Shown one piece after another: positions 44,485 through 50,787 of a stretch of DNA of 64,000 nucleotides; the stretch's first letter is position 1; every line of letters begins with the position of its first letter. The notes under the pieces were generated by a model. It ran no database searches. It was not told the origin of the DNA and saw only the letters and a program-made list of their open reading frames with translations. A program made the position numbers and the translations under genes. The DNA is taken from positions 1,054,001-1,118,000 of the forward strand of contig NZ_JACCFO010000001.1 in the NCBI RefSeq assembly GCF_013410565.1, written 5' to 3'. The stretch is from Streptomonospora nanhaiensis. GTDB lineage: Bacteria; Actinomycetota; Actinomycetes; Streptosporangiales; Streptosporangiaceae.

Positions 44485-45063
44485 ATGGGTGAAGACGCGC
44501 CCGTCACCGACGGCCGCCGGCTGCGGGGGCGCCGCCGCCGCGCGGAGATCATCGAGGCCACGCTGCGGGTGGTGCGGCGCGACGGCGCGGCGGGGGTCAC
44601 CCACCGCACCGTGGCGCGGGAGGCCGGCATCCCCACCAGCCTGACCACCTACTACTTCGCCACCCTCGACGACCTCCTCGTGGCCGCGCTGTCCAGTGTC
44701 GCCGACGTCTACACCGCGCGGATCCGGGCCATCGCCGACGCCGGAGGGGACACCCTGCGCGGGCTGGCGGAGCTGATCGCGGAATCGGCGGGGACGGGCC
44801 GCGAGCGCGCCCTCGCCGAGCGCGAGCTGTCCACGCTGGCGGCGCGCCGCCCGGCGCTGCGGCCGGTGGCCCGCCGCTGGCGCGACAACGTCGCCGAACT
44901 CGGCCGCGCCCACACCGCCGACCCCGAGGGGGTCGCCGCGCTCGTGGCCGCGGCCGACGGCCTGTGCGCGGGTGTGCTGCTGGACCCCGACCGGGCCGAT
45001 GTCGACCACATCCACGCCGTGCTCAGCCGGGCCCTGGCCGCCGACACCGCCCCCGCGCCCTGA
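44485..45063 (+). CDS. TetR/AcrR-family repressor
   Basis: 192 residues. Basic N-terminus and the TetR helix-turn-helix (about 18-65: AEIIEATLRVVRRDGAAGVTHR, IPTSLTTYYFATLDDLL), followed by a helical ligand-binding part. GAGGAGG precedes the ATG. Cotranscribed with the efflux gene, it probably represses the shared promoter through TAGTTG half-sites and is released by a transported compound. Confidence 0.88.
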   Translation: MGEDAPVTDGRRLRGRRRRAEIIEATLRVVRRDGAAGVTHRTVAREAGIPTSLTTYYFATLDDLLVAALSSVADVYTARIRAIADAGGDTLRGLAELIAESAGTGRERALAERELSTLAARRPALRPVARRWRDNVAELGRAHTADPEGVAALVAAADGLCAGVLLDPDRADVDHIHAVLSRALAADTAPAP

Positions 45064-45090: not shown

Positions 45091-45978
45091 TCAGCCGTCC
45101 AGGGCCGACAGGTCCAGCCGGGCGAGCCGCTCGGGGTCGGCCAGCGCGTCGATGTAGGCGATCCGGCCGTCCACCACGGTGTAGGCCAGCAGGGAGTACA
45201 GCCGCCCGTCCTCGGTGCGGCTGAGCACGCCGATCCCGCCGTTGACCACCACCGTGCGCACCAGTTCGGGCGGCCGGGCGTAGAGCGCCGCCTGGCGCGC
45301 CACCTCCTCGGCGCCGCGCACCGCCGGCGCCGCGCCGGGCCGCAGCGCGCCCCAGTCGACCCGGGTGGTGGCGTCGGGGTGGAGCAGTTCCACCAGCGCC
45401 GCGAGGTCGCCGCCGCGCGCGGCCGCCAGGAACGCCTCCACCACCCGGCGCTGGCGGGCGAGGTCGGGGTCGGGTGCCGGGGCGGCCCCGCGCACCCGGC
45501 GGCGGGCGCGGCTGGCCAGCTGGCGCGCGGCGGCGGGCGAGCGCTCCACGATCGGCGCGATGTCGTCGAACGGCACGCCGAACAGGTCGTGCAGGACGAA
45601 CGCCAGGCGCTCGGCGGGCGGCAGGGTGTCCAGCACCACCAGCAGCGCCAGGCCCACGGAGTCGGCCATCAGCGCCTGCTGCTCGGGGCCCTCGGCCGCC
45701 TCCAGCGGCGCGACCACCGGGTCGGGTAGGCGGGCGCCGGCCGGCTCCTCGCGGCGGGCGCGGCGCGACCGGAGCATGTCCAGGCACACGCGGCCGACAA
45801 CGGTGGTCAGCCAGCCGCCGAGGTTGTCGATCTCCGCGGCGTCCGCGCGGTTCAGGCGCAGCCACGCCTCCTGCACCGCGTCCTCGGCCTCGGCCTGGGA
45901 GCCGAGCATCCGGTAGGCCACCGCCCTCAGCCGATCGCGGTGCTCCTGGAACCGGTCTCCCAGAAAAAAGTTCTCCAT
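45091..45978 (-). CDS. ECF41-group sigma factor with SnoaL-like C-terminal domain
   Basis: 295 residues. Region 2 (about 8-75, YRMLGSQAEAEDAVQEAWLRLNR) and region 4 (about 120-170, LVVLDTLPPAERLAFVLHDLFGVPFDDIAPIV) are joined to a SnoaL-like domain (about 180-290) that in ECF41 replaces an anti-sigma factor. The two conserved ECF41 tail motifs appear in modified form: VNGGIG for DGGGK and ADPERL for NPDKL. Divergent from a flavin oxidoreductase, the typical target partner, through a double ECF41 promoter. Confidence 0.92.
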   Translation of the reverse strand: MENFFLGDRFQEHRDRLRAVAYRMLGSQAEAEDAVQEAWLRLNRADAAEIDNLGGWLTTVVGRVCLDMLRSRRARREEPAGARLPDPVVAPLEAAEGPEQQALMADSVGLALLVVLDTLPPAERLAFVLHDLFGVPFDDIAPIVERSPAAARQLASRARRRVRGAAPAPDPDLARQRRVVEAFLAAARGGDLAALVELLHPDATTRVDWGALRPGAAPAVRGAEEVARQAALYARPPELVRTVVVNGGIGVLSRTEDGRLYSLLAYTVVDGRIAYIDALADPERLARLDLSALDG

Positions 45979-45982
45979 AACC

Positions 45983-46044
45983 GGTCACATCTCCTCTCCG
46001 AGGTCCGTCATGGGAGTGACGGACCGAACGAGGCTGATGTGACC
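45983..46044. promoter_or_regulatory. Symmetric pair of ECF41 promoters
   Basis: Rightward GGTCACA (45983-45989)-N16-CGTC (46006-46009); leftward GGTCACA (46044-46038)-N16-CGTC (46021-46018). Both match the ECF41 consensus TGTCACA-N16-CGTC at all but one base. The two sites form an imperfect palindrome centred near 46013. They drive the oxidoreductase and the sigma gene respectively. Confidence 0.85.
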
Positions 46045-46082
46045 GGCCCCTGCGGACACTCTGCGAGATACGGGGATTGAAC

Positions 46083-47396
46083 GTGAACGCTGCTGTGGAG
46101 AACCTTCGCACACAGGTGCGCGGCCGCGTCCTGCTGCCCTCCGACGACGGGTTCGCCCAGGCCCGCTCGCCCTGGAACCGCGCGGTGGAGCAGCCCGTGG
46201 CCGCGGTCGTGGAGGCCGCCGACGCCGACGACGCCGCGGCCGTGGTGCGCCACGCCCGCGCCGCGGGGCTGACGGTGGCGGCCCAGCCCAACGGCCACGG
46301 CGCCTCCGGCAACACCGCCGGCGTGGTGCTGCTGCGCACCGGCGCGCTGGACGGGCTGGCGGTCGACCCGGCCGCGCGCACCGCCCGTGCGGAGGCGGGC
46401 GTGACCTGGGGGCGGGTGCAGGCCGAGGCCGGCCCGCACGGGCTCACGGGCATGGCGGGCAGCTCGCCGATCGTGAGCGTGGTGGGCTACACCCTCGGCG
46501 GGGGGCTGAGCTGGTTCGGCCGGTCCCACGGGTGGGCGGCCGACAGCGTGACCGCCTTCGAGGTGGTCGACGCCGAGGGCGAGCGCGGCCGGGTGACCGC
46601 CGCCTCCGATCCCGACCTGTTCTGGGCGCTGCGCGGGGGCGGGGGCGACTTCGCGCTGGTGACGGCGGTGGAGTTCGACCTGCACCCGGCGCCGGAGCTG
46701 TACGGCGGTCGGATGCTGTTCCCCGGCGCGCTGGCCGCCCGCGCGTTCGACGCCTTCCGCGCGATCACCGAGAAGGCCCCCGACGCGCTGTCGACGTGGT
46801 ACACCCGCCTGCACCCGCCCGGCGGCGACCCGCTGGTCGCGGTGGACGTTGCCTTCCTGGGCGGCGAGGCCGAGGCCAAGGAGCTGCTGCGCCCGCTGGA
46901 GGCGGTGGGCGCGGCGATCGCCGACACCCGCCGGCCGATGTCCCCCGCCGAACTCGGCGCGATCACCGCCGACCCCACCGACCCGGGCCCCGGGTTCAGC
47001 CGGGCCCGCTCGCTCGCCGACCTCGACGGAGACGCCGGCGCGGTGCTGGCGGAGGAGGACGCGGCGCCGCTGCTCATGGTGCAGGTGCGCCACCTCGGGG
47101 GCGCGCTGGCCCGCCCGTCGGACTCCGCCACCGGCGCCCTGGCGGCGCCCTACCTGGTCTACACGCTGGGGCTGCCGCTGTCGGCGGACCTGGCGGCGGG
47201 GCTGCGGGAGCGGTGCGCGCGGCTGTGGGAGTCCCTGGGCGGGCGGGTGGGCGGGCGGCGGCCCTACAGCCTGCTGGCGCCGGGCGAGTCGGCGGCCGAC
47301 GCCTTCACCCCCGAAGCGGTGGCGCGGCTGCGGGAGGTCAAGCGCGCCCGCGACCCGCACGGCGTCTTCCGCGCCAACTTCCCGGTGCTGGACTGA
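46083..47396 (+). CDS. FAD-binding oxidoreductase (PCMH/BBE-like)
   Basis: 437 residues. PCMH-type FAD domain (about 15-210) with QPNGHGASGNTAGVVLL, SPIVSVVGYTLGGGLSWFGR and WALRGGGGDFALVTAVEF; C-terminal substrate domain ends with a BBE-like RDPHGVFRANFPV. Flavin may be attached to the histidine of NGHG. GTG start chosen; a TTG six bases earlier and a GTG twelve bases later are alternatives. It stands behind its own ECF41 promoter and matches the usual ECF41 partner class of oxidoreductases. Substrate unknown. Confidence 0.85.
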   Translation: MNAAVENLRTQVRGRVLLPSDDGFAQARSPWNRAVEQPVAAVVEAADADDAAAVVRHARAAGLTVAAQPNGHGASGNTAGVVLLRTGALDGLAVDPAARTARAEAGVTWGRVQAEAGPHGLTGMAGSSPIVSVVGYTLGGGLSWFGRSHGWAADSVTAFEVVDAEGERGRVTAASDPDLFWALRGGGGDFALVTAVEFDLHPAPELYGGRMLFPGALAARAFDAFRAITEKAPDALSTWYTRLHPPGGDPLVAVDVAFLGGEAEAKELLRPLEAVGAAIADTRRPMSPAELGAITADPTDPGPGFSRARSLADLDGDAGAVLAEEDAAPLLMVQVRHLGGALARPSDSATGALAAPYLVYTLGLPLSADLAAGLRERCARLWESLGGRVGGRRPYSLLAPGESAADAFTPEAVARLREVKRARDPHGVFRANFPVLD

Positions 47397-47511: not shown

Positions 47512-50500
47512 TCAGCAGCGGTGCGGGGCGGTCCGCTCGGACTCGCCGTGCCACCACGGGGCGTCGCCCCCGGTGCCCGCCGAGGGCAGGGGGTCGCCGC
47601 GCCTGGTCGCGGGGGGCGCCGAGCGGGTCTGCGGGCGGGTGGCGTCCTCGGCGAAGGGCTCCATCAGCTCCTCGACGCGGTGCACCACGCCGTTGACGAT
47701 CGTCATGCGGACCGCGGCGGCGGCCGTGATGTCCTCCAGGGGGTTGCCCTCGACCACGGCGAGGTCGGCCAGCCGGCCCGGTTCGACCGCGCCGAGGTCG
47801 CGGCCCAGGCCCAGCCAGCGGGCGGTGGTGGAGGTCGTGACGGTCAGCGCCGCGCGGGGGGTGAACCCGTGGGCCACCATGGCCCGCAGGTTCAGGTGCA
47901 GGCTGACGGCCATGTTGTCCAGCGGGGCGTCGGTGCCGCCGATGATGAGCCCGCCCTTCTTGTGGACGGTGCGCAGGGTGGCGACGTTGTCGGGCAGCGC
48001 CGCGCGGGCCCGCCGGGCGTCGGGGCCGCCCGCCGCCGCGTCGTCGGCCTTGGTCTCCAGCGCCCGGTACTCCCAGGCGGGGAAGAGGCGGCGGGTGCGC
48101 TCGTCCTCGACCAGGGAGCGGTCCTCGGCGTAGAGCGCGGAGGCGTTGAACAGGGTGGGCGTGATGGCGATCCCCGACGCCGCGAACATCGCCGTGACGT
48201 CGCCGTAGGCGCGGCCGAGCTGGCTGGCGGTGTGGGAGTAGCCCAGCCGGTTGGTGGCGCCCATGTGCTCCATGCCGTCCATGCCCAGGTGGGCGGCCGG
48301 GTAGAGGTAGTGCGAGGTCAGGGGCAGGCCGGCGCGGTGGGCGCGGTGCACGGCGGTGCGCTGGAGGCGCACCGGCAGCCGCACGTAGGTCTTGACGAGG
48401 TCGTAGTCCAGTTCGAAGGCGCGCTCCAGTTCGCGCTCCAGGGCCTCCTCGTCGTGGGTGGGGCGCATGAAGTTGTAGTAGATGCGCGTTCCGTCGACGG
48501 CCTCGCCGGTGGCGAGGTAGCGGGGGCCGGTGATCTTGCCGGACTCCAGCGCCTCGCGGGTCTCCAGCATCTGGTAGACGGGGTCGCCGGGCGAGCGGGT
48601 GGCGGTGATGCCGTAGGCCAGCCACAGCGGCCCCTGCCGGGCGCCCCAGTGGCGGCCGCGCAGGTGCCAGTGGTTGTGGGCGTCCATGAGGCCGGGCAGC
48701 ACGGTGAGGTCGGCGGCGTCCACCACCCGGGCGCCGCCGGCGCCTCGCGTGCGCGGGCGCACCTCGGTGATGCGGTTGCGGTCGATGACGATGTCCACGT
48801 CGTGGCGCAGCCGGTCGGAGGTGCCGTCCCAGACGGCCCCGGCCCGCACCAGGGTGCGGCCCGAGGGGCGGGCGCGGCGCCGGCGCAGCGGCATGGCCAC
48901 CCCGGCGGAGCGCCCGCCGGTGCGCGCGACGGTGCGCAGCCGGCCGCTGCTGAGGTACAGCAGGGTCTGGGAGTCCCCGCTCCAACTGGGGGCGTCGGTG
49001 GGCTCGGTGGTCAACTGGCGGGGTTCGGTGCGGAAGCCGCCGTCGGCGTCGACCTCGACGGTCCACAGCACGCTGTCCATGACGAACGCCATGTGGCGGC
49101 CGTCGGGCGACCAGACCGGGCCGTCGTCGCCGCGCGTGGACAGCGACCGGTAGGGCGCGGGCTCGATATAGCGGGTGGTGCCGGTCTCCAGGTCGACGGT
49201 GAGGATCTGGCTGGTGCCCTCGCGGAACCGCCGCGAGCGCGGCCGCACCGCGGCCAGCGCCAGCACACGGCCGTCGCGCGACCAGGTGGGGCGGCCCGGC
49301 TGGAAGAGGGCGGGCAGGACCTGGCGGGTGGTGTTGGCGGCGACGTCGTAGACCCAGGTGGCGCCGTCCTGGTCCTGGTAGGCGATCCGCTCGCCGTCGG
49401 GCGACCAGCGGGGCGTGACCTGGGCGCCGTCCAGGTGGGTGAGCCGGGTGGTCTCGCCGGAGTCGAGGTCGTAGCGCCACAGGGCGGGCGCGCCCGAGCG
49501 GTCGCCGGAGTACACCAGGGAGGTGCCGTCGGGGTGCCAGTCGGGGTCGGAGTTGAAGTAGCCGTCGTCCACGATGGCGCGGGGCTTCTTGCCGATCGGC
49601 ATGACCCACAGCGCGCCCAGCGCCCGGAAGGCCACGCGGGTGCCGTCGGGCGACAGGACCGGCCCGGCGATCCCGCGCACGGGGTGCTCGTCGTGGTCGT
49701 CGATGTCGCGCCGGGCGGGGCGGGATTGGCGGCGCAGGTAGGGGACGGTGGCGCGGAAGTCGACGTCGGTGGCGCCGGAGCCGAGCGTGCGGTGGCGGAT
49801 GGCGCCGTCGGCGGTGTAGAGCAGCCGGTCCTCGCCGGTCCAGGTGAGGGTGCCGACGAAGACGTCCTCGTCGCCGCTGACGGCCTCGCCGTCGACCACC
49901 AGGCGGCAGGTGTCGGCGTGGAAGCGCACGTGGGCCAGCCGTCCGCCCGGGCCCGGGGCCGGGGAGAAGACGGTGGTGTGGTCGGCGGCGGGGACGAGTT
50001 CCTCGCTGTTGCCGTCGAGGTCGGTGGCGCGGACGCCGGCGCGGTCGGCGGTGTAGACGATCCGCTCGCCGTCGGGTGTCCAGGCGGGCTCGCCCGCGTC
50101 GGAGGCGTCGCCGGTGATCCGGGTCAGCTCGCCGGATGCGACGTCGTAAACCCAGATGTCGTAGCCGTCCTCGCGGTCGGAGGCGAGGGCGATGCGGGTG
50201 CCGTCGGGCGAGAACGCGGGTTCGCGGTGGTCGTGGGGCCCCTCGGTGATGCGGCGCGGCCGGCCGTCGGGCAGGTCGAGCAGGTAGACGTGGTAGTTGC
50301 CGTCGCGGTAGGCCTGGAAGACCAGTTGGGAGGAGTCGGGGCTGAAGCGCGGGCGGGTGGCGTCGACGATGTCGCCGGTGAGGCGGCGGGCGGTGCCGCC
50401 GGCGGCGGGGACCAGCCAGATGGCGGTGTAGAGGTCGAAGGCGATCCACTCGCCGTCGGGCGAGGCGGCGGCCGAGATGTTGGTGCCCTGGGTGACCGTG

Positions 50501-50787
50501 ACCGAGCCGCCGGAGGAGTCGGCGTCGGCGGTGTCGTCGGCGGCCGCGGGCGCTCCGGGGGCCAGCAGCCAGGCGGCGCCGCCGGCGAGCGAGGCCTTGC
50601 CGCCGGTCTCGAACAGGTCGCGCCGGGTGAGGGCGCCGCCCGGCTCGGCGGGCTGCTCGGGTGCGGGGCGCGGCGGGGGTGCGGAGAGGGGGGAGCCGGC
50701 GGTGGGGGCCGCGGCCGGGGCGCCGGGAGCGGCGGGGGTGTCGGGGGCGGATGAGGCGGGGGGCTGGGACGGGCGGGGATGCGCCAT
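47512..50787 (-). CDS. Tat-exported TolB-like propeller fused to amidohydrolase
   Basis: 1091 residues. After a 50-residue Pro/Ala-rich lead comes a twin-arginine motif (TRRDLFETGG) and hydrophobic stretch ending APAAAD, then two stretches of PD40/TolB repeats (many SPDG and WSPDG units, about 90-640) and an amidohydrolase barrel (about 680-1040) with metal-site motifs DAHNHWH, SHYLYP and GTDAPLDN, and PGRLADLAVVEGNP near the end. Known relatives are secreted imidazolonepropionase-like amidohydrolases of unresolved substrate. Being folded before Tat export suits a metalloenzyme. Monocistronic between a terminator and its own promoter. Confidence 0.87.
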   Translation of the reverse strand: MAHPRPSQPPASSAPDTPAAPGAPAAAPTAGSPLSAPPPRPAPEQPAEPGGALTRRDLFETGGKASLAGGAAWLLAPGAPAAADDTADADSSGGSVTVTQGTNISAAASPDGEWIAFDLYTAIWLVPAAGGTARRLTGDIVDATRPRFSPDSSQLVFQAYRDGNYHVYLLDLPDGRPRRITEGPHDHREPAFSPDGTRIALASDREDGYDIWVYDVASGELTRITGDASDAGEPAWTPDGERIVYTADRAGVRATDLDGNSEELVPAADHTTVFSPAPGPGGRLAHVRFHADTCRLVVDGEAVSGDEDVFVGTLTWTGEDRLLYTADGAIRHRTLGSGATDVDFRATVPYLRRQSRPARRDIDDHDEHPVRGIAGPVLSPDGTRVAFRALGALWVMPIGKKPRAIVDDGYFNSDPDWHPDGTSLVYSGDRSGAPALWRYDLDSGETTRLTHLDGAQVTPRWSPDGERIAYQDQDGATWVYDVAANTTRQVLPALFQPGRPTWSRDGRVLALAAVRPRSRRFREGTSQILTVDLETGTTRYIEPAPYRSLSTRGDDGPVWSPDGRHMAFVMDSVLWTVEVDADGGFRTEPRQLTTEPTDAPSWSGDSQTLLYLSSGRLRTVARTGGRSAGVAMPLRRRRARPSGRTLVRAGAVWDGTSDRLRHDVDIVIDRNRITEVRPRTRGAGGARVVDAADLTVLPGLMDAHNHWHLRGRHWGARQGPLWLAYGITATRSPGDPVYQMLETREALESGKITGPRYLATGEAVDGTRIYYNFMRPTHDEEALERELERAFELDYDLVKTYVRLPVRLQRTAVHRAHRAGLPLTSHYLYPAAHLGMDGMEHMGATNRLGYSHTASQLGRAYGDVTAMFAASGIAITPTLFNASALYAEDRSLVEDERTRRLFPAWEYRALETKADDAAAGGPDARRARAALPDNVATLRTVHKKGGLIIGGTDAPLDNMAVSLHLNLRAMVAHGFTPRAALTVTTSTTARWLGLGRDLGAVEPGRLADLAVVEGNPLEDITAAAAVRMTIVNGVVHRVEELMEPFAEDATRPQTRSAPPATRRGDPLPSAGTGGDAPWWHGESERTAPHRC

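Follow-up and report, generated by a model that had tools for sequence, protein, structure and literature searches.

In Escherichia coli, bioA and bioB are transcribed from overlapping divergent promoters that are controlled by a regulator. On the conjugation plasmid pLS20, divergent promoters also overlap, and initiation at them can compete (PMC4207663). At the bidirectional promoters of E. coli described by Warman et al. (2026, PMC12825309), a pseudo-symmetric segment binds RNA polymerase either way, one at a time, with transcripts starting beside or within a shared -10 element and common start distances of 18, 10 and 23 bp. Basal activity was too low for polymerase competition at the five such promoters tested; a promoter activated in one direction could be repressed in the other, and interference reduced noise (PMC12825309).

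ECF41 sigma factors, as described by Wecke et al. (2012, PMC3426412), consist of the sigma2 and sigma4 regions and a C-terminal SnoaL/NTF2-type extension of about 100 amino acids, with a WLPEP motif in the linker; the C-terminal domain controls sigma activity, with no anti-sigma factor. A C-terminal NPDKL motif has been reported as well (PMC7730460). The adjacent gene encodes a carboxymuconolactone decarboxylase, an oxidoreductase or an epimerase (PMC3426412). The promoters have a -35 element xGTCACA, a 16-bp spacer and a -10 element CGTC, and TGTCACA-N16-CGTC is present before the COE gene, the sigma gene or both: among 55 divergent ECF41 loci, 36 have the motif ahead of the sigma gene and 41 have it ahead of the COE gene (PMC3426412).

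We analyzed a 64-kb stretch of Streptomonospora nanhaiensis DNA (the window) in which a SigJ-like sigma gene and an FAD-dependent oxidoreductase gene diverge. The site between them agrees with the ECF41 description in promoter motif and gene neighborhood. It differs in that the window sigma lacks WLPEP and NPDKL, and in that the passages of Wecke et al. on these promoters mention no fixed spacing between the two; the words 'palindrom-', 'inverted' and 'overlapping' are absent from the main text of that paper (PMC3426412). Like the promoters of Warman et al., the site appears to place the promoter elements of both directions in one symmetric segment. However, the E. coli promoters share one -10 element and regulators bias their direction, whereas the window site has two complete -35/-10 ECF promoters, the predicted starts are 9 bp apart and one of the products is the sigma itself. 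In the window, a single sigma would switch on the two directions together. The relevant passages of PMC12825309 contain no such case, and the word 'extracytoplasmic' is missing from its main text. In contrast to pLS20 (PMC4207663) and bioA/bioB, which are run by a DNA-binding regulator, the symmetry in the window is that of the promoters themselves. The literature we searched, which covered few subscription papers, gave no account of interlocked ECF promoters with a fixed spacing. What we rate as new here is the interlocked ECF form of an already known bidirectional promoter.

A symmetric promoter pair between a sigma gene and an oxidoreductase gene

The original prediction placed GGTCACA-N16-CGTC on both strands, equally spaced and around one center. 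This is borne out by exact matches at 45983-46009 on the forward strand and 46018-46044 on the reverse strand, which are the only exact matches in the window when spacers of 14-18 bp are allowed (0.25 expected by chance). The joint 62-bp pattern, with CGTC-N8-GACG in its middle, matches once in the window and in none of 100 dinucleotide shuffles, with three mismatches allowed. Two perfect inverted repeats share the center at 46013.5, one with 11-bp arms (45981-45991/46036-46046) and one with 9-bp arms (46002-46010/46017-46025). Throughout the 6.28-Mb genome, KGTCACA-N16-CGTC has nine sites versus none for a reversed-pattern control, and the window site is the only exact pair of promoters facing each other ('face-in') with a gap of 0-30 bp.

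Table 1. Features of the site and its flanking genes (window coordinates)
Feature	Position	Strand	Remarks
TetR-family regulator gene	44485..45063	+	convergent with sigma gene
ECF sigma factor gene, SigJ family, SnoaL_2/NTF2-like C-terminal domain, 295 aa	45091..45978	-	
Outer inverted repeat, 11-bp arms bearing both -35 elements	45981..46046	.	
-35 GGTCACA, FAD oxidoreductase promoter	45983..45989	+	sequence match; kept in L112 and L101
Shine-Dalgarno-like GGAGAGGAG, sigma gene	45991..45999	-	read from sequence; within oxidoreductase promoter spacer
Inner palindrome GGTCCGTCA-N6-TGACGGACC	46002..46025	.	two -10 elements face to face across 8 bp
-10 CGTC, oxidoreductase promoter	46006..46009	+	sequence match
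Predicted sigma mRNA start	46009	-	from start rule; 5' UTR 31 nt to ATG at 45978
Predicted oxidoreductase mRNA start, G, ninth nt after CGTC	46018	+	from start rule
-10 CGTC, sigma promoter	46018..46021	-	sequence match
-35 GGTCACA, sigma gene's own promoter	46038..46044	-	sequence match; GGTCCCA in L112, GGTCACA in L101
FAD-dependent oxidoreductase gene (FAD_binding_4), 437 aa, putative target	46083..47396	+	divergent from sigma gene

With the predicted starts, each -10 element would also encode the first four transcribed bases (GACG) of the opposite mRNA, 46006-46009 those of the sigma mRNA and 46018-46021 those of the oxidoreductase mRNA. The 5' UTR of the oxidoreductase mRNA would be 65 nt to the GTG at 46083, which is best taken as the start codon because a 437-aa same-genus homologue aligns from the same residue. 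The claim that each -35 element lies within the leader of the other transcript holds provided that transcription starts at 46018 (+) and 46009 (-). The complement of the oxidoreductase -35 element falls between the Shine-Dalgarno-like stretch and the start codon of the sigma gene, and the region matching that stretch is mostly purine in 43 related sites (alignment columns 49-55). A start-stop AUG-UGA in the sigma leader was set aside: ATGTGA is the complement of the conserved -35 element and directly adjoins the Shine-Dalgarno-like stretch. The gene at 47512-50787, which converges with that of the oxidoreductase, encodes a 1091-aa protein in which TolB-like propeller repeats precede an amidohydrolase domain.

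The window sigma contains Sigma70_r2 and Sigma70_r4_2 and a SnoaL_2 match under the Pfam cut-off (E 8e-5), which is the sigma2 and sigma4 architecture with a SnoaL/NTF2-type extension that characterizes ECF41. It scores 282.7 bits against the SigJ subfamily NF007214 (NCBIfam), above the curated cut-off of 271. The nearest PDB structure is Mycobacterium tuberculosis SigJ (5xe7), both by sequence over residues 9-286 (E 2e-48) and by fold (E 8e-18), the latter from a structure model with a mean pLDDT of 77.7 and a pTM of 0.53. The promoters follow the ECF41 form on both strands, though their first base is G where ECF41 has T, and the divergent FAD_binding_4 oxidoreductase is a neighbor of the ECF41 kind. 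The linker between sigma2 and sigma4 reads RLPDP in place of WLPEP, and the C terminus reads ADPERL in place of NPDKL. The label 'ECF41' given in the original prediction therefore stands in part: the SigJ-like fold, the SnoaL_2-like tail and the promoter type agree with it, the two missing motifs do not, and we name the protein an ECF41-like, SnoaL_2-tailed sigma rather than a proven ECF41 member.

The same motifs are missing from other sigmas with interlocked promoters. WLPEP occurs in 10 of the 154 sigmas of our whole set versus 0 of the 48 with 8-bp interlocked pairs, NPDK or NPEK is found in none of these 48, and neither WLPEP nor NPDK is found in the 59 sigmas with interlocked pairs at 7-12 bp (the window's own included in each count). 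The promoters of the WLPEP sigmas are single, back-to-back or, once, a 20-bp pair; none is interlocked at 7-12 bp, a count over 10 proteins only. No anti-sigma domain was detected in the five neighboring proteins scanned besides the window sigma. Seven proteins of the genome, the window sigma included, exceed the SigJ family cut-off, so cross-talk at the site is possible.

Two further loci of the same genome carry GGTCACA-N16-CGTC. At L189 (G000:C1:3148355-3148462), a second SigJ-like sigma gene lies back-to-back with a carboxymuconolactone decarboxylase gene; both genes have the motif, with 54 bp between the -35 elements, and the same genome therefore uses both layouts. At L185 (G000:C1:5721515 and 5724281), the motif precedes a carboxymuconolactone decarboxylase gene and a beta-lactamase-family gene, and no SigJ-family match is present within 75 kb. 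A sigma gene in L001 (Streptomonospora mangrovi) is preceded by near-identical promoters, so the L185 sigma may have been lost and its targets orphaned.

Recurrence and spacing of the pair

To determine how often the arrangement recurs, we picked 80 loci solely by similarity of their sigma proteins (the best 80 of 99 relatives found) and scored 300 bp upstream, allowing for each promoter at most one mismatch or a one-base spacer change. This is the only unbiased count of the frequency of the pair. Among these best 80 of 99 relatives, the motif was found on the sigma strand in 53, on the opposite strand in 32 and on both in 29, while 24 loci had neither at this stringency. The 29 two-strand pairs split into 18 face-in (interlocked) and 11 back-to-back pairs. 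The gap between the -10 elements was exactly 8 bp in 15 of the 18 face-in pairs, with 9, 11 and 44 bp occurring once each; the 11 back-to-back pairs had seven spacings (10 and 12 bp three times each; 23, 29, 31, 34 and 61 bp once each). The symmetry that the original prediction proposed to look for at other loci is thus a recurrent one. In the locus with the 44-bp gap (L009, Streptantibioticus ferralitis, upstream of 3001), the gap holds repeated CGTCACTGCA units, as if a 36-bp tandem insertion had split an 8-bp pair.

Seven of the 15 loci with an 8-bp gap are actinobacterial (Aeromicrobium, four Kribbella, a Streptomyces and an actinobacterial bin). The others are from two Aminobacter, three Rhizobium, a Shinella, a Rhodospirillales bin and Terriglobus. 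Terriglobus belongs to the Acidobacteriota and Aminobacter to the Alphaproteobacteria; the remaining loci we take to belong to the Actinomycetota or the Alphaproteobacteria. On these assignments, the 8-bp form is shared by Actinomycetota, Alphaproteobacteria and an acidobacterium, and the genes that face the sigma belong to several enzyme families. Among 19 divergent or neighboring frames scanned, one is itself a sigma (L081) and one has no Pfam match (L035); the partner at L084, where the gap is 9 bp, is an ABC ATPase, and the others are carboxymuconolactone decarboxylase, NmrA/NAD-binding or epimerase, FAD_binding_4 and polyketide cyclase-like proteins. A recognizable divergent target was present at 23 of the 32 loci with an opposite-strand promoter versus 5 of the 48 without one (best 80 of 99 relatives; Fisher P 2e-8), an association that is biased in its favor by query proteins taken from promoter-bearing loci and tested as if related loci were independent, which they are not. 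At five of the 15 eight-bp loci of the same 80 (L024 and the four Kribbella, with L035 among these five), no known target family was found divergently.

Whole genomes were searched for face-in pairs with gaps of 0-30 bp, the center genome being counted among the matches; the reversed-pattern control gave none in each search. In the order of the window, 22 of 249 genomes match, with a gap of 8 bp in 15, 24 bp in five, and 20 and 21 bp once each. The order of an Aminobacter genome gave 8 matching genomes out of 249, all eight at 8 bp, and a sample of the window's phylum gave 9 out of 396, with gaps of 8 bp in three, 9 bp in two and 11 bp in four. Ten genomes chosen partly for loci already showing the pair gave seven matches, all at 8 bp, and are excluded as evidence. 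Back-to-back pairs in the order of the window number 29, in 25 of 249 genomes, at distances of 4-30 bp, of which 12 bp is the commonest (7 of 29). The spacing is therefore much tighter in the interlocked form, but not absolute: gaps of 9, 11, 12, 20, 21, 24 and 44 bp also occur, and 8 bp is preferred rather than obligatory.

Two groups with other gaps deserve description. The 24-bp gap, 16 bp more than usual, is found in five genomes of one genus of the window's order (L095-L099), each of which also has an internal CGTC/GACG set 8 bp apart; these look like face-in pairs moved 16 bp further apart. The 11-bp gap is found in four genomes of one family in the phylum sample (L086-L089), a spacing outside the start-site rule described below. 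Three of them have the core CGTCATTGTAGTAGTGACG on one strand in common, and the fourth differs at one base.

The distribution of the 8-bp state was followed on a 'quick' tree of 154 sigmas with relaxed motif scoring, from which fragments below 180 aa and duplicate proteins were dropped; its rows include loci fetched for carrying the searched promoter-pair pattern. The state is present in 48 rows and requires 19 changes, at least eight of them forced by starred branches, and it is clustered, with none of 500 shuffles as low. The window sigma groups with those of L112, its nearest orthologue, from the same genus, and the more distant L101. Both loci have an 8-bp pair and a divergent FAD oxidoreductase, and when the three intergenic regions are aligned, similarity is highest in the promoter elements. 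The inner palindrome is preserved in L112 and has a single arm mismatch in L101, so symmetry is present in both orthologous sigma/FAD-oxidoreductase loci found, where its absence had been named as grounds for rejecting the original prediction. Both promoters are intact in L101. L112 shows a natural one-sided change about 66 to 40 bp ahead of the sigma match, with GGTCCCA as the sigma-side -35 element next to an unaltered oxidoreductase-side promoter; autoregulation may therefore be weak or lost there.

The start-site preference and the 8-bp gap

A preferred start position was derived from back-to-back promoters, which have no opposing -10 element just downstream. Of 57 such promoters, 29 have a GA whose G is the ninth nucleotide after CGTC, whereas at each of 21 other positions GA begins in at most 10 of 57 (P about 8e-15 versus the mean of the other positions). 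GACG is present at the ninth-nucleotide position in only 4 of the 57. An ECF41-type start mapped in Sinorhizobium meliloti has TGTCACA-N16-CGTC '9 nt upstream' (PMC3616915), which we take to mean that the start is base nine after the motif; if nine bases separated the two, the start would lie one further. Wecke et al. give G as the transcription start in two organisms (PMC3426412).

This preference rationalizes the 8-bp gap. When the -10 elements are 8 bp apart, the ninth base after each CGTC opens the GACG of the opposite element, so that the favored start of either promoter is contained in the -10 element of its partner. With gaps of 9 and 11 bp, initiation would have to occur elsewhere, so the ninth-nucleotide rule is a preference. 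GACG is also present at the start position of 14 of 47 promoter matches that have no opposing promoter (repeated-sequence and locus-end-cut matches were dropped from this set and from the 57). Part of the symmetry may consequently reflect an initiation preference alone. Such promoters may also point to the origin of the two-way form, to which only the opposite -35 element would have to be added.

A two-way promoter and its alternatives

We propose, with a probability of about 0.7, that the site is a bidirectional ECF-type promoter: two interlocked promoters of the same specificity, the start of each coinciding with the -10 element of the other, at which one polymerase at a time, directed by the adjacent SigJ-like sigma, produces either the sigma's own mRNA or that of the oxidoreductase. 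The geometry of the pair, its rarity, its conservation and the lack of symmetry beyond the promoter elements can be read directly from the DNA. From these features we infer the start points, the use of the site by the adjacent sigma and its occupation by a single polymerase. Two complete GGTCACA-N16-CGTC promoters oppose one another, their -10 elements 8 bp apart; each would initiate at the ninth nucleotide after its own CGTC, where a GA begins, and one melted segment would be common to both. The sigma holoenzyme would bind in one orientation at a time, one orientation giving the sigma mRNA (positive autoregulation) and the other the FAD oxidoreductase mRNA. Because the 16 bp from CGTC to GACG belong to both promoters, structural considerations suggest that two polymerases could not initiate simultaneously.

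The main competitor, which we consider plausible though somewhat short of even odds, is that two independent ECF promoters overlap merely because the intergenic region is short, so that the symmetry has no regulatory meaning and polymerases rarely meet at natural sigma levels. Many divergent loci of Wecke et al. have the motif before both genes (PMC3426412), back-to-back solutions exist too, a gap of 8 bp may simply be what accommodates both start sites at no extra cost, and E. coli bidirectional promoters showed no competition at basal activity (PMC12825309). Yet compactness favors no one spacing, whereas the gap is exactly 8 bp in 15 of the 18 face-in pairs among the best 80 of 99 relatives and in 8 of 8 in the alphaproteobacterial order, and the target genes opposite the sigma are unrelated. 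Overlapping divergent promoters for the sigma and the oxidoreductase, as originally predicted, are strongly supported by this exact geometry, conserved in sequence across phyla. It is unlikely that the oxidoreductase promoter alone functions, with the sigma-side half being vestigial or a side effect of the start-site sequence. The GGTCCCA of L112 fits that idea, as does the COE gene or operon being the sole detected target in Bacillus licheniformis and Rhodobacter sphaeroides (Wecke et al. 2012, PMC3426412), but both -35 elements are perfect in the window, L101 is intact on both sides, and the sigma-strand motif is the commoner one (53 versus 32 of the best 80 of 99 relatives).

The symmetry itself could have other causes. 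A repressor that binds as a dimer, such as the product of the TetR gene at 44485-45063, might use the palindrome as its operator, with the ECF promoter match being secondary; the 24-bp inner palindrome is of operator-like size, the TetR gene is one gene away, and L112 retains the 9-bp arms, as L101 nearly does. We regard this as very unlikely. In 43 eight-bp sites, aligned by sigma orientation with GTCAC, GTC, GAC and GTGAC required at fixed places (and thus invariant there by construction), 6.14 of the 18 position pairs outside the promoter elements are complementary, versus 6.16 when halves of different loci are combined; the window itself has 6 of 18. With this symmetry at chance level, no extra operator is needed. 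Moreover, the half-sites also occur singly and back-to-back as promoter-like motifs, and the GGTC before CGTC partly follows the general consensus, which on the sigma side is GGT followed by T or C, and so need not mark an operator; for this one clade taken alone, an operator retains a slight probability. The perfect 9-bp arms and 6-nt loop would suit an RNA hairpin or a terminator, but this reading is extremely improbable: no T-run follows, the most conserved columns are promoter positions while other pairs are complementary only at the expected rate, and with the predicted starts neither mRNA would contain both arms, which is evidence against a hairpin.

If the site is indeed a two-way ECF promoter, the ratio of the two transcripts is predicted to be fixed at any sigma level and sigma self-amplification to be capped, unlike with two separate promoters. 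In an occupancy model with an autoregulated sigma and a shared site, the target-to-sigma ratio equals the ratio of promoter strengths at all sigma levels, and sharing lowers maximal sigma, which is halved when the strengths are equal; with two separate promoters, firing becomes equal as saturation is approached. Both the fixed ratio and the cap are outcomes of the model. A broader and more tentative proposal, which we think has the odds against it, is that selection keeps the two-way unit in one large branch of SnoaL_2-tailed sigmas, where either/or firing would lock the enzyme-to-sigma ratio and cap self-activation, a limiter that works without an anti-sigma gene.

The two-way reading would add an ECF version to the recently described bacterial bidirectional promoters and provide a simple, testable spacing rule, in which the -10 element of one strand is the +1 of the other. 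The conserved 62-bp unit, symmetric in its elements, would give studies of competing polymerases a clean natural substrate with a single shared bubble. For the sigma family, it suggests a way in which a sigma that activates its own gene, and has no anti-sigma gene, could keep its amplification in check.
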